Notes under the pieces: model-generated
The model's database searches: none
The model's input: the letters and a program-made list of their open reading frames with translations, nothing else
Told to the model about the DNA's origin: nothing
Made by a program: the position numbers and the translations under genes
In this document: one piece after another, positions 2,412 to 12,904 of the stretch
How positions within the stretch are numbered: the stretch's first letter is position 1
Layout of the letters: each line of letters starts with the position of its first letter
Assembly (NCBI RefSeq): GCF_001182895.1
Contig: NZ_LFQR01000004.1
Span: 124,001-188,000, forward strand
DNA from: Frateuria defendens
Lineage (GTDB): Bacteria; Pseudomonadota; Gammaproteobacteria; Xanthomonadales; Rhodanobacteraceae
Length of the DNA stretch: 64,000 bases
Reading direction: 5' to 3'

Positions 2412-3409
2412 ATGCCCCCTCGCTCGATACCTCACCCCGCCTTCCCGATAGCGCCGAAGCCTGGCTGGCGCGCCTGCATGCGCCCGATTGCAGCACGCAG
2501 GACCGCGCCGCCTTCGAACACTGGCACGCCGCCAGCCCCGAGCACGCGCGGGCCTACGCCGAGGTCGAGCGCCTGCATGCCAGTGCCGCCCTGCTGGCCG
2601 GCGATCCCCTGCTGCGCGCCGCGGCGCGCGCGGCCGCCCGCCGCGGCGCACGGCGGCGCCGGCTCGCCTGGCTGGTGCCCTCGGCGGCGGTCGCCGCCGG
2701 CGCGTTGCTGGCGCTCGGCCTGCTGCAGCGCCCGCGCGATCCCGCGCCGGTCGCGCAGCATTTCGCCAGCGGTACCGAGGTGCTCGAGGTCGCCCTCGGC
2801 GACGGCACGCAGCTCAAGCTCGACGCCGACGCCGCGCTGACGGTGCGCCTCGGCACGGACCGGCGCGAGGTGCAGTTGGAACGCGGCCGCGCCGAATTCC
2901 ACGTGGCCCACGACGCGCGGCGGCCGTTCGCGGTGCAGGCCGGCACCAGCCTGGTCCGCGACCTCGGCACCGTGTTCCAGGTCAGCCGCGCCAGCGACGG
3001 CGTCACCGTGGGCCTGCTCGAAGGCCAGGTAGCGGTCAGCGGCGGCCAGGGCGGGCAGGCCTGGAGCCGCCCGCTGCAACCGGCGCAGCAGCTGCACGTC
3101 GACCCGCACGGCAAGGCCGGCGCCGTGGCGCCGCTGGATCTGGCCGCCGCGCAAGGCTGGCCCGCGGGCGAGCTGGTGTTCCGCGAGCGCGCGCTGGGCG
3201 ACCTGGTCGAAGACATGAACCGCTATGCCTCGACCAAGCTGCGCCTGGGCGATGCGTCCCTGTCCACGATCCGCGTCAGCGGCAGCTTCCATGCCGGCGA
3301 CCAGGAGGCCCTGGCGCGCGCGCTGGAACACGGCTGGCAACTGCGCGCGGTGCGCACCGATCCGGCCATCATCCTGCTCTTGCCACCCCATACCGCAGGA
3401 CGGCGCTGA
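2408..3409 (+). CDS. FecR-like transmembrane anti-sigma factor
   Basis: 333 residues. The N-terminal cytoplasmic part (about 12-60, AEAWLARLHAPDCSTQDRAA) is the DUF4880/FecR N-domain that binds the sigma factor. A single membrane segment spans about 86-106 after the basic stretch RRGARRRR. The periplasmic FecR domain follows (about 120-235, with DGTQLKLDADAAL and RDLGTVFQV). The C-terminal 75 residues (GELVFRERALGDLVEDMNRY onward) form an STN/DUF4974-like module of the kind that contacts the receptor signalling domain. The start overlaps the sigma factor stop by four bases. The architecture is that of a regulator relaying receptor occupancy to FecI-type sigma factors. Confidence 0.87.
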   Translation: MNAPSLDTSPRLPDSAEAWLARLHAPDCSTQDRAAFEHWHAASPEHARAYAEVERLHASAALLAGDPLLRAAARAAARRGARRRRLAWLVPSAAVAAGALLALGLLQRPRDPAPVAQHFASGTEVLEVALGDGTQLKLDADAALTVRLGTDRREVQLERGRAEFHVAHDARRPFAVQAGTSLVRDLGTVFQVSRASDGVTVGLLEGQVAVSGGQGGQAWSRPLQPAQQLHVDPHGKAGAVAPLDLAAAQGWPAGELVFRERALGDLVEDMNRYASTKLRLGDASLSTIRVSGSFHAGDQEALARALEHGWQLRAVRTDPAIILLLPPHTAGRR

Positions 3410-3415
3410 CGACAC

Positions 3416-6269
<2,854 letters not shown>

Positions 6270-6271
<2 letters not shown>

Positions 6272-6432
6272 AGCCTGTCAACGTCTTGCCGTTGACGTGG
6301 CTTGGCGCCTCTCCCTGCTTGCAGGGGGAGGCGGGGAGGGGGTGAAGTCTGGCCTCGAGGCAAGGGTTTACTCTTCCCCAACCCTCCCCTGCACGCAGGG
6401 GAGGGTACAGGTGAGACTTTGAACAGGCTCTT
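6270..6432. repeat. Dispersed palindromic repeat, copy 1 (TTAGAGCCTG element)
   Basis: It begins with AGAGCCTGTCAACGTCTTGC directly on the receptor stop codon and ends with AGACTTTGAACAGGCTCTT, so the ends are imperfect inverted repeats. Read as reverse complement, it matches the 94-base element at 33713-33806 along both flanks (CTTGCCGTTGACG, GGCTTGG, CCCTCCCCTGC); copy 1 carries roughly 60-70 extra internal bases. Internal palindromes are CCTCTCCCTGCTTGCAGGG and CCCTCCCCTGCACGCAGGGG. It may end transcription of the receptor operon. It has no coding content. Confidence 0.75.
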
Positions 6433-7893: not shown

Positions 7894-8882
7894 ATGCCCA
7901 ATGGCTGGAACCCCTACGCATGACCCAACCGCACGCCGCCCAGCGCGCCCTGGCCTTCGCCCCTGCCGGCGTGGGCAACGTGGGCGTGGGCTTCGACATC
8001 CTCGGCCACGGCCTGGCCGGCGCCGGCGATCGCGCCGAGGTGCGCCGCATCGCCGAGCCGGTGGTGCGCATCGCCGGCATCCACGGCACCGTGGTCGACC
8101 TGCCCACCGACCCCACCCACAACACCGCCGGCGCCGCGCTGCTGGCGCTGCGCAAGGCGCTGGGCCTGAGCCACGGCTTCGAGCTGGTGCTGCACAAGGG
8201 CATCGCGCTCGGCTCCGGCATGGCCGGCTCGGCCGCCTCCTGCGTGGCCGCGCTGGTGGCCGCCAACGCACTGCTGCCCACGCCGCTCGCGCTGGAGGAT
8301 CTCTACAGCTTCGCCCTCGACGGCGAGGCGGTGGCCAGCGGCGGCCGCCACGGCGACAACATCGGGCCGATGCTGCTCGGCGGGCTGGTGCTTTCCACCG
8401 CCACGCGGCTGGTGCCGATTCCCGTGCCGGCGCACTGGCATTGCGCGCTGGTGCACCCGCACTGCGTGCTGGAGACGCGCCAGGCGCGCGCCGCGCTGGC
8501 CGGCCACTACCAGCTCGGGGAATTCGTGGCGCAGAGCGCCAACCTCGCGCTGGTGCTGGCCGGCTGCTACCGCGGCGAGGCCGCGCTGGTGCGCGAGGGC
8601 CTGAAGGACGTGCTGGTGGAACCGCGCCGCGCCCCGCTGGTGCCGCAGTTCGCCCAGGTGAAGCAGGCCGCGCTCGACCACGGCGCGCTCGGCGCCAGCA
8701 TCTCCGGCGCCGGCCCCAGCGTGTTCGGCTGGTTCGAGCATGCGGCCGAAGCCCGCGCCGCCGCCGAAGCGATGCGTGCCGCCTTCGCCGCGGGCGGGCT
8801 GGACAGCGACGTCTTCGTCTCCCCCATCGCCGGCCCCGCCGCGCACCTGCTCGAAGTGGACGGCCGCGAGGTGCGCGCATGA
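7890..8882 (+). CDS. thrB: Homoserine kinase
   Basis: 330 residues; phosphorylates homoserine to O-phosphohomoserine for ThrC. GHMP-kinase fold: N-terminal [15 protein letters not shown], the ATP-binding glycine loop [11 protein letters not shown] (107-117), and the C-terminal [12 protein letters not shown] motif. The start at 7890 overlaps the upstream stop (ATGA). A second ATG at 7920 gives 320 residues and is equally family-like. The two starts sit in a near-duplicated segment (CTGGAACCC..ACGCATGA at 7878 and 7906), so the upstream one may be a recent duplication. It overlaps thrC by four bases. Confidence 0.93.
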
Positions 8883-10210
8883 GCGCGGCCGTGCGTTACC
8901 TGAGCACCCGCGGCGGCGCGCCCGCGGCAGGCCTGTCGCAGGCGATCGCCGCCGGCCTCGCGCCCGACGGCGGTCTCTACGTGCCCGAGCAGCTGCCGCA
9001 GCACGATCCGGCCGCGTTCGCTCCCGCCGGCTCCCTCGCCGACACCGCCGCCACGCTGCTGGCGCCGTTCTTCGCCGGCGACCCGCTGGCCGCCGAGCTG
9101 CCGGCGATCTGCGCCGAGGCGTTGGACTTCCCGGTACCGCTGCGCCCGCTGACGCGCCCCGACGCGCAGGTGCTGGAGCTGTTCCACGGCCCCACCGCCG
9201 CCTTCAAGGACGTCGGCGCGCGCTTCCTCGCCGCCTGCATGCGCCGGCTGCCGCGCGCGGACGGCCGCCCGCTCACCATCCTGGTCGCCACCTCCGGCGA
9301 CACCGGCGCCGCGGTGGGCGCCGCCTTCCACCACCAGCCGGGCGTGGAGGTGGTGATCCTCTACCCCGACGGCCGCGTGTCGCCGCGCCAGGCGCACCAG
9401 CTCGGCAGCTTCGGCGACAACGTGCAGGCGCTGGCCGTGGCCGGCCGCTTCGACGACTGCCAGCGCATGGTGAAGGCCGCGCTCAACGACGCCGCGCTGC
9501 AGGCCGGGCGTCCGCTCAGCTCCGCCAACAGCATCAGCCTCGGCCGCCTGCTGCCGCAGATGAGCTACTACGCGCACGCCGCGCTCGGTTGGTGGCGCGA
9601 GCACGGCACGCCGCTCGACTTCATCGTGCCCACCGGCAACCTCGGCAACGCGCTGGCCGCCGTGTGGGTGCGCGCGATGGGCCTGCCGGTGGGCCGCGTG
9701 ATGCTCGCCTGCAACGCCAACGCCACCCTGCCGGAATTCTTCGCCGGCCAGGACTACGCCCCGCGCGAGGCGCTGGCCACCATCGCCAACGCCATGGACG
9801 TGGGCGCGCCGAGCAACTTCGAGCGCCTGCGCTGGACCTACCCCGACGCCACCGAACTGCGCCGGGTGCTGAGCGCCCGGAGCGTGGACGACGCCACCAT
9901 CCGCGCCACCGTGCTGCGCCACGCCGCCGACGAGGGTGAGCTGTTCTGCCCGCACACCGCCACCGCGCTCCACCTGCTCGACCAACTGCCGCCACGCACC
10001 GACGGCGGCGCCTGGGCGGTGGTCGCCACCGCCCACCCGGCCAAGTTCGAGACCGTGCTGGAACCACTGCTCGGCCGTCCGGTGCCGGTGCCGCCATCGC
10101 TGGCGGCGATGCTGGCCCGCCCCGCCCGGGCCGCGCCGCTGGCGGCCGAAGACGAGGCCTTGCGCACGTGGCTGCGCGCGCCGGCGGAGCGGCTCAGCCT
10201 CAGCGCCTGA
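8879..10210 (+). CDS. thrC: Threonine synthase
   Basis: 443 residues; PLP enzyme converting O-phosphohomoserine to threonine. N-terminal YLSTRGGAP is the typical threonine-synthase opening, the PLP lysine is Lys110 in [14 protein letters not shown], and the phosphate-binding loop is [10 protein letters not shown] (136-145). STGNLGN-type loop is present as [12 protein letters not shown]. Start overlaps thrB (ATGA). It is the last gene of the threonine operon and is convergent with the aldolase-like gene; the 65 bases between them show no clear terminator. Its product feeds IlvA in the superoperon downstream. Confidence 0.95.
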
Positions 10211-10275: not shown

Positions 10276-11457
10276 TCATGCACGACGCGCTGCGGCGCCC
10301 GTGCCCGCGAAGACCTCGGCAATGGCCGCGACCGGCCTGCGCAAGAGGGTCTCGTTGATGGTTATCTGCAATTCGCCGTGCTGGATCGGGCCGATCACGA
10401 TGCCGGCCTCCTTCAGCCGCGCCGCCAACCCCTGCTGGACGCGCCCGTCCAGTTTCAGGAAGGCGATGTTGGTGCCGTGCGGCACGCGGCGGACCTCGAT
10501 GCCGGGCACCTTGTCCAGCAGGTCAAGCAACGCCGTTCCCGCCTGCCGGGCCCTGGCGAACCGCGCCTCGAAACCGTCGAGGGAGGCCGACGCAATCAGC
10601 GCGGCCATCCAGCCATGGAAAATCGTGCCGCCCAGGATGTGCCGCAGGTCGCGCGCCTTGGCGGCGAACGAGGCGTCGCCAGCGAGGAGGGCGCCGAAAG
10701 GCGCGCCGAGATACTTGTAGAGCGACACGTAGACCGTGTCGAAGCAGGCGCCATAGCGGCGCAGGTCGAAGCCCGCGCCATCGCTCATCAGGAGGAGTCG
10801 CGCGCCGTCGAGGTGCATCCCGGCCCCGTTCTGCCTGGCGAGCGCCGAGATTTTCCTCACGGTATCGAGCGGCAGGGCCGCGCCATCGAGCCGCCGGACC
10901 GGGCTTTCCAGCGAAATCGCGCCGATCTCGACCGGATAGGCATCCTCGGTGGTCTGCTGGAACGCCTCGGCGACGGCCCGGTACAGATCGTCCGTCACGC
11001 CGCCCTCGAGCGGCACGGGGTTGATCCCGCTCAGGATGGAAACGGCATCGCTTTCATCCCGGTAGACATGGCTCTCCTGCTGCAATAGGAGATGCCTGCG
11101 CTCCCCGCACAGCAGGCGGATGGCGACCTGATTCGCCATCGTGCCGGTGGGAAAGAAGACCGCGGCCTGCTTGCCGACCCGCCCGGCGAACTGCGCCTCG
11201 AGCCTCTCGACGGCACCTTCGGCCAGATAGAAATCGCCGACATCGGTTTGTGCGGCCAGGAGCTTCCCGAGTTCGACCGGGTAATGGCCGATCCGGACGG
11301 GCACGTTGTCGCCGATCAGGGCGACCAGTCGATCGAAAGCCGCCGGGTCCGACGTGGGCGAGTCCGCCGCATGAGCCAGCCGCAAGGGAAAGCCGGCGGC
11401 GGACAGGGACAACGAGGCGAGAGGAATCGAACGGATGAACTCACGACGGCTCACCAT
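10276..11457 (-). CDS. PLP-dependent threonine aldolase-like lyase with Tat-type signal peptide
   Basis: 393 residues. Starts MVSRREFIRS followed by a hydrophobic run and AHAA, a twin-arginine signal (consensus SRRxF). The rest is the beta-eliminating lyase/threonine aldolase fold: FFPTGTMANQVAIR, HLDGAR (215-220) and the PLP lysine Lys248 in SLYKYLGAPFGALL. Family members split L-threonine or allo-threonine into glycine and acetaldehyde. ATG 11457 has GGAGG upstream; an ATG at 11472 would add five residues. Export of such an enzyme is unusual, because most threonine aldolases are cytosolic. Base composition looks somewhat less GC-rich than the flanks, which may reflect transfer. Substrate is not provable here. 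Confidence 0.8.
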   Translation of the reverse strand: MVSRREFIRSIPLASLSLSAAGFPLRLAHAADSPTSDPAAFDRLVALIGDNVPVRIGHYPVELGKLLAAQTDVGDFYLAEGAVERLEAQFAGRVGKQAAVFFPTGTMANQVAIRLLCGERRHLLLQQESHVYRDESDAVSILSGINPVPLEGGVTDDLYRAVAEAFQQTTEDAYPVEIGAISLESPVRRLDGAALPLDTVRKISALARQNGAGMHLDGARLLLMSDGAGFDLRRYGACFDTVYVSLYKYLGAPFGALLAGDASFAAKARDLRHILGGTIFHGWMAALIASASLDGFEARFARARQAGTALLDLLDKVPGIEVRRVPHGTNIAFLKLDGRVQQGLAARLKEAGIVIGPIQHGELQITINETLLRRPVAAIAEVFAGTGAAARRA

Positions 11458-11567
11458 GGCGCTCGCCTCCATTCTCCGACGGGAGAACGGATGCTAGAGG
11501 CCGCACCCGCAGCCCCGCAGTGCCAGGAGTCATGGGGCTACGTGACCGCCATGCCATTCTGCCCGAT

Positions 11568-11647: not shown

Positions 11648-12223
11648 TTACGCCAGCAGATCGAGGATCGCCTCGGTGGAGCGCACCCGACCCAGCCGCG
11701 GGAAGATGTGCGCCAGCGCGAAGCCATGCTGCTCCGCATTCGCCGCGCTCATCGCGTCCTCGGCGAACACCACGCCGTAGCCGTGTTCCCACGCGGCACG
11801 GGCGGTGGATTCCACGCCGATGTTGGTGGAGATGCCGCCCAGCACGATCTGCGCGACGCCCCGGCGGCGCAGTTGCAGGTCGAGCTCGGTGCCGTAGAAG
11901 GCGCCCCACTGGCGCTTGGTGATGTGGATGTCGCGCTCGCCCGCCGCCAGCTCGTCGGCGTAGTCCCACCAGTTCGCCGGCAGGCCGTCGGGCGGCAATG
12001 CCGCGGGGCGGTCCACCGGCTGCTTGAGCGCATCGCCGAAGCCGGCCGACCAGCCCACCCGCACCAGCACCACCGGCGCGCCGGCCTCGCGAAAGCGGGC
12101 GGCCAGGCGGCCGGCGCGGGCGAACACGTCGGCGGCGGCATGCGGACCGCCGGCGAAGGGTGCGATACCCTTCTGCAGGTCGATCAGCACCAGCGCGGTG
12201 TCGCGTGCATCGAGCTTTTCCAC
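11648..12223 (-). CDS. Isochorismatase-fold (cysteine hydrolase superfamily) hydrolase
   Basis: 191 residues from a GTG start, chosen because CGGAG lies 7-8 bases upstream and the family begins here ([11 protein letters not shown]). Asp15 and Lys103 ([10 protein letters not shown]) are at the positions of the family's catalytic Asp and Lys. The nucleophile position in the [12 protein letters not shown] segment holds Gly136 instead of Cys, a variant seen in isochorismatase-type rather than nicotinamidase-type members. Reaction unknown. It is divergent from a TetR-family gene with a 54-base shared control region, so that regulator probably controls it. Confidence 0.8.
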
Positions 12224-12277: not shown

Positions 12278-12904
12278 ATGTCCTCGCAAAACACAAGCGC
12301 CGCCCGGCGCGTTCCGCAGCGCCGGCGCGGTCACGAGCGCGTCGCCGCCCTGCTCGACGCCGCCGACGCCTGCTTCGCCGAGAGCGGCTACGACGCCGCC
12401 ACCATGACCGCCATCGCCGCCCGCGCAGGCGCCGCGATCGGCTCGCTGTACCAGTTCTTCCCGACCAAGGAGGCGGTGGCCGAGGCGCTGCTGGCGCAGC
12501 ACACGCAGACCCTGCTCGCCCGCCTCGCCGCGCTGCGCGGGCGCCTGGCCGGCGGCGATCTCGACCAGGTCGCCGCCGGGCTGGTGGGCTTTCTGGCCGA
12601 TTTCCGCCGCCGCCATCCGGCCTACGTGGTGCTGCTCGAATCGACCGGCTTCGCCGACCGGCGCGGCGACGCCATCCGCCAGCAGCTGCGCGCGGAACTC
12701 TCGGCCCTGCTGGCCGAGCACCTGCCGGCGCACCCCGCCCCCGTCCTGCGCGCCGCGACCCTGGTGGTGCAGCAGCTGATGAAGGCCGCCGTGGCCCTGC
12801 AGGCGCAGGCCCCCGCCGCCGACCGCCGCGTCGCGCGGGCCGAACTGGAACGGGCGTTGCGGCTCTACCTGCACGACCTCGCGCACCGCCCCGCTGGGGA
12901 CTGA
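12278..12904 (+). CDS. TetR/AcrR-family transcriptional regulator
   Basis: 208 residues. DNA-binding domain at about residues 15-65: [20 protein letters not shown], then [20 protein letters not shown] and [11 protein letters not shown], the classical TetR helix-turn-helix. The C-terminal ligand/dimerisation half is unremarkable. ATG 12278 is preferred because GGAG lies nine bases upstream; ATG 12272 has it too close. Likely autoregulated and a repressor of the divergent isochorismatase-like gene. Ligand unknown. Confidence 0.88.

Follow-up and report, generated by a model that had tools for sequence, protein, structure and literature searches.

A predicted Tat-exported PLP enzyme of the threonine aldolase superfamily with altered pocket residues in Frateuria defendens

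Two solved threonine aldolases, the L-allo-threonine aldolase of T. maritima (PDB 1jg8) and the low-specificity enzyme LtaE of E. coli (4lnj), have in common with the enzyme described here the fold and the equivalents of the catalytic lysine, His83, the aspartate and Arg171. Their chains align just past its leader, with 25-26% identity over the fold, but the ENT and GGxRQ motifs and the second carboxylate arginine are replaced in our enzyme. The proteins Lmo0305 of Listeria (3pj0) and 3lws of Exiguobacterium, both 'putative' threonine aldolases by their entry titles, show E-x-P-x-R where canonical enzymes have ENT and S-x-Y-K where they have S-K, as does our enzyme. Two sequences with the motifs of these proteins, L080 and L081, form a long branch of their own.

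To our knowledge, periplasmic PLP enzymes are few, and most are transaminases or racemases. PvdN and PA2531 of P. aeruginosa use PLP. Both are listed as Tat substrates in PMC6085387, as is predicted for the enzyme here, and give a precedent for Tat export of annotated aminotransferases, the table in that source showing the cofactor as 'None predicted'. Their annotated reaction is a different one (PMC6085387).

The window analyzed is a stretch of 64,000 nucleotides of the Frateuria defendens contig NZ_LFQR01000004.1. On its minus strand, positions 10276..11457 (stop included) encode a threonine-aldolase-like PLP enzyme of 393 amino acids with a putative Tat leader; the open reading frame is intact, with the stop at 10276 and an ATG start at 11457. 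A longer frame starting at 11472 is less likely because a Shine-Dalgarno-like GGAGG (11466..11470, minus strand) sits eight bases 5' of the ATG at 11457. Promoter and terminator scans gave no match. PF01212 (Beta_elim_lyase) covers residues 73-334 with 156.1 bits (curated cut-off 27, E 1.6e-45), and the protein scores 620 bits against profile A1, of which it is itself a row. The earlier note's description of a complete PLP enzyme with a Tat-type leader, running from MVSRREFIRS to AHA, thus agrees with what we found.

Base composition had been said to differ from the flanks, which is right but mild: the gene has 67.8% GC, whereas 38 window ORFs, picked by a composition rule and including the gene's own, average 72.9% (sd 2.6). 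Its GC3 is 0.855 (z -0.9), and 8 of the 38 ORFs, some of them probably false frames, are lower. Of the transfer that was to be checked by composition and phylogeny, a recent one from a distant source found no support, as the nearest relatives in the tree belong to the same bacterial family and the composition is only slightly odd.

The predicted structure has a mean pLDDT of 66.8, and by Foldseek and Z scores its best fold matches are threonine aldolases. The Z score was 29.4 to 1jg8, 28.7 to 4lnj and 27.9 to both 3pj0 and 3lws, a comparison that speaks for the families listed and leaves room for others. Five rows went into the model (the window protein, L032 and three relatives from viral contigs, on three of which five loci were found), and it leans to the canonical fold because the added rows look canonical in consensus. 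Such a match tells the architecture of the enzyme, not its activity.

Active-site positions were compared among 24 canonical rows (A4), 48 distinct subfamily members with a Tat-type leader (hereafter the predicted exported set), five leaderless relatives and two Lmo0305-like proteins. PMC4761611 and PMC6411801 supplied the roles of the canonical residues, which were mapped onto the window enzyme by alignment. His130, Asp217, Arg220 and Lys248 are kept in all these sets alike; in the predicted exported set they are present in 48/48 members, as are G105 and G276. Lys248 (codon 10714..10716, minus strand) aligns with the PLP-binding Lys199 of the T. maritima threonine aldolase, and His130 (codon 11068..11070, minus strand) with the PLP-stacking His83, a role described in PMC4761611. 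In E. coli, Arg169 and Arg308 hold the substrate carboxylate (PMC4761611); the first carboxylate arginine is kept as R220 in all 48.

Other positions around the cofactor have changed. The canonical ENT is replaced by the signature E184-S-P-V-R-R189 (10891..10908, minus strand), in which P186, V187, R188 and R189 occur in 48/48 members; position 186 is T in each of the 24 canonical rows. The arginine of GGxRQ, position 280, is likewise present in 24/24 canonical rows and in 0/48 exported ones, 46 of which have Tyr, Phe or Pro. Position 134 is aromatic in 22 of the 24 canonical sequences and D in every exported member, and position 247, S or T throughout the canonical rows, has become Tyr or Trp. 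Lys273 is exchanged for His, Arg or Asp, and Gly283 for Trp in 45 members. Column 364, which holds the second carboxylate arginine in all 17 canonical rows that reach it, is mixed: the six commonest residues, none of them Arg, make up 38 of the 48 entries, the window enzyme having Gln in this sequence alignment, and Arg does occur in a small number of members, L002 and L059 among them. Arg188, Arg189, Asn368 and Arg373 are invariant across the exported set, although gaps in 21/24 canonical rows around 188-189 make residue equivalences there uncertain. Loss of His126 was dropped as a mark of the subfamily, a histidine being found in that column in 1 of 24 canonical-looking sequences.

The splitting of threonine suggested by the earlier note fits these data poorly, in that near-universal canonical residues are replaced by another invariant set. 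It is unlikely that the protein is a true L-threonine, L-allo-threonine or phenylserine aldolase, exported to salvage β-hydroxy amino acids in the periplasm. That reading can draw on the best PDB matches, by sequence and fold, which are L-allo-threonine aldolases, and on the retained equivalents of Lys, His83, Asp and Arg171. It can also draw on PMC4761611: mutations of His83 and His126 in E. coli LtaE are not lethal, and the C. crescentus LTA has an aspartate four residues past the stacking histidine, as the window enzyme does, so that Asp134 alone is no bar to aldolase activity. Set against this, both the second carboxylate arginine and that of GGxRQ are lost. The scores also stay below the named-family cut-offs, at 154.5 bits against 230 for the GntG family PLP-dependent aldolase model NF041359 and 108 bits against the equivalog cut-off of 312 for the LtaE type NF007825 (both NCBIfam), the two families that all 30/30 rows of alignment A3 match. 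Furthermore, the genome already has a separate canonical aldolase elsewhere (L031), which lacks a Tat-like leader. The altered active site suggests instead a substrate other than ordinary threonine, and we consider it rather probable that free threonine is not what the enzyme acts on.

The genomic surroundings were examined for hints of that substrate. As had been pointed out, the gene is convergent with thrC, which ends at 10210 on the plus strand, with an intergenic gap of 65 bp; the thr operon was confirmed to encode homoserine dehydrogenase, GHMP kinase and threonine synthase domains. On the other side, an isochorismatase-type hydrolase (11648-12178, minus strand; NCBIfam PRK11440 over cut-off) is encoded 190 bp upstream on the same strand and is divergent from a TetR-type regulator (12290-12904, plus strand). 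The threonine-operon neighborhood was rejected as a pointer to function because the genes are convergent and hom-thrB-thrC was not recognized beside the relatives at seven other loci (L090, L091, L093, L104, L120, L136 and L137). This survey covered 7 of 39 retrieved stretches and ORFs of at least 180-220 amino acids, with genes recognized mostly by eye and, in four of the seven loci, a Pfam check on a total of five nearby ORFs.

Beyond the operon, a TonB-dependent receptor (3416-6271) has barrel and plug domains over cut-off and an N-terminal STN-like part at 25.5 bits, just under the Pfam cut-off of 28.4. Between it and the homoserine dehydrogenase gene, positions 6313-6406 contain palindromes; the arms 6381-6392 and 6395-6406 pair perfectly, and the segment 6381-6406 overlaps a 48-nt imperfect inverted repeat. 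By eye, a peptide string at the start of an L093 ORF resembles the 6313-6406 region, which may be a family-wide repeat. In L093, a gene beside the relative (8727-9701, minus strand) encodes a metallo-beta-lactamase-fold protein in which an N-terminal arginine pair and a hydrophobic run were seen by eye.

The seven loci have neighbors unlike those of the window gene and, for the most part, unlike one another; among them are an acyltransferase (L093), an AraC-type regulator (L104), an O/P-type porin (L090) and an SbmA/BacA-like transporter (L137). L136 and L137, from one genus, have by eye a convergent downstream gene in common. Across the seven loci no consistent neighbor hinted at the substrate, and we take the gene to be a mostly stand-alone unit.

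These surroundings bear on a further reading, in which the threonine aldolase fold serves another periplasmic reaction, such as racemization, transamination or the PvdN-like tailoring of a secreted metabolite or peptide. A changed pocket is compatible with it, and in PMC6411801 a fungal alanine racemase is said to have threonine-aldolase-like active-site residues; PvdN, an aminotransferase in the pyoverdine pathway, is exported by Tat (PMC6085387). The one neighbor in its favor is in L137, where an SbmA/BacA-like peptide-transporter gene (5119-6078, minus strand, 107 bits) lies directly upstream on the same strand, its end at most a few bases from where the PLP gene starts. We did not build on this link, since such a gene is missing at this place in the congener L136; the link was also unrecognized at the loci of five other relatives. 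No biosynthetic cluster was recognized by eye in the relatives' loci that were read, and we regard such a reaction as doubtful, somewhat more so than an exported true aldolase.

The leader itself has the pattern of a Tat substrate, with twin arginines, then a stretch that is uncharged and moderately hydrophobic, then a signal peptidase site. Residues 1-30, MVSRREFIRSIPLASLSLSAAGFPLRLAHA (11368..11457, minus strand), form the putative signal peptide and are followed by AD; the arginine pair leads into a 16-residue uncharged run and then AHA, with a 13-residue Kyte-Doolittle mean of 1.52. From this we infer cleavage after AHA-30, which would leave residues 31-393 (10276..11367, minus strand) as the mature periplasmic enzyme, a part within which the PDB threonine aldolases align. 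In all 48 members read, RR falls in the first 15 residues and an uncharged run of 13 residues or more is present; AxA is seen at residues 19-48 in 45. In the leader columns of A3 only R4, R5 and F7 are invariant and the remainder varies, in a subfamily where whole-protein identity drops to 35%. The hydrophobic stretch, which the earlier note considered might belong to the folded domain, lies outside it: solved threonine aldolases match from residue ~37-68 onward, the first 35-40 residues being extra, and residues 1-36 of the predicted structure have pLDDT below 50.

Profile models of Tat signals matched weakly. Neither TIGR01409 nor PF10518 matched the window's own leader, even with the threshold at E 10. 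Of ten leaders tested from the 48, three passed a curated cut-off (L004 with TIGR01409 and PF10518, L006 with PF10518, L051 with TIGR01409), the other seven passing none. TatC is encoded in the same genome at 240.6 bits, over cut-off. Judged from sequence, Tat export of the window enzyme is very likely.

Members of the subfamily are patchily distributed, and loss or transfer within the order is therefore likely. Relatives were gathered with profile A1, which includes the leader and nevertheless also retrieved leaderless proteins (six hits in the class of G743); scoring was confined to the four to eight top candidates of each genome, so that all counts are lower bounds. In the bacterial family of Frateuria, at least 27 of 233 genomes and 9 of 26 genera carry a member with an E value of at most 1e-50, all of these scoring above 490 bits. 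The order has members in at least 41/398 genomes and 19/98 genera (E 1e-60), and an even draw of the class in at least 2/369 genomes (E 1e-50). In a draw of 398 genomes of the phylum, three places exceeded 500 bits, the next best score being 163. The class of G743 has members in at least 8/289 genomes at E 1e-60, two with a leader and six without. The 48 members read comprise 27 from the own family (among them that of G521, read through its named copy L032), 18 from a second family of the order, and those of G894 (another family of the class), G1127 and G1009 (the other class).

As to where homologues start, the concern that they begin after the putative signal holds for part of the tree only. 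Close relatives keep the leader, as all 48 members read show, while distant relatives begin near the fold without a Tat-like one; therefore these represent a leaderless branch and not a false leader in the window. Seven relatives with the E[ST]PxRR motif, L113-L118 and L089, lack a Tat-like leader; those aligned, five in number, also have the SLYK, GG...W and N-x-[TS] motifs in common with the exported set. The reading frames of L113, L116 and L117 stay open farther upstream, and in L117 that extension has RR with no uncharged run of 13 after it. L089 of Nitratireductor, named a 'beta-eliminating lyase-related protein' and leaderless unlike the window enzyme, is a long branch in the tree. On its plasmid, this ETPSRR-type enzyme (2459-3505) lies amid peptide ABC-transporter, creatininase-family and glutamine-synthetase-family genes, surroundings that may hint at the kind of substrate used by the sister group.

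With the leader omitted from the tree, the five aligned leaderless rows form one group (100/99) that is nested within the exported set, next to 12 exported members from the second family (100/98). Because the leaderless group nests there, the leader appears to be old and to have been lost or gained at least once more. A single gain was rejected, as the best tree needs two changes with the leaderless group beside those 12 members; these could be a gain plus a loss, or a pair of gains, the root and long branches being unsure. That the leader is unused for export and the enzyme cytosolic is highly improbable, for although same-motif relatives do without a Tat-like leader and the Tat models do not match that of the window, its arginine pair and hydrophobic run are kept in 48/48 members while other leader positions vary, and it lies outside the fold.

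Our preferred reading, to which we give a probability of about 0.6, is an exported PLP enzyme of fold type I, with the threonine aldolase fold, that acts as a lyase on an amino compound other than free L-threonine. The enzyme would fold and bind PLP in the cytoplasm, pass the Tat pore in the folded state, lose its leader after AHA-30 and work in the periplasm. There, Lys248 would form the Schiff base, His130 would stack on the ring and Asp217 would sit on the pyridine nitrogen, while Arg220 would bind an acidic group on the substrate. The reaction would most likely be Cα/Cβ cleavage (retro-aldol) or removal of a β-substituent. The far end of the substrate may be read by the invariant Arg188/Arg189 and Asp134, a role that for the arginines is our guess from the alignment. 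Only tentatively would we go further and propose a periplasmic subfamily of PLP lyases or racemases with its own ExPVRR active site, acting on a secreted, peptide or cell-wall-derived amino compound in an undescribed activity, its leader having undergone one or more gains or losses.

We call this enzyme a new, probably exported variant of the threonine aldolase superfamily; among the titles and abstract openings of listed open-licence PMC papers a Tat-exported threonine aldolase was not recognized, which is not proof of absence. The subfamily, in which canonical residues are missing, would call for caution against automatic naming as 'threonine aldolase'. If the reading is true, a conserved branch of the threonine aldolase fold exported by Tat would mean that C-C lyase reactions on amino compounds also take place outside the cytoplasm.
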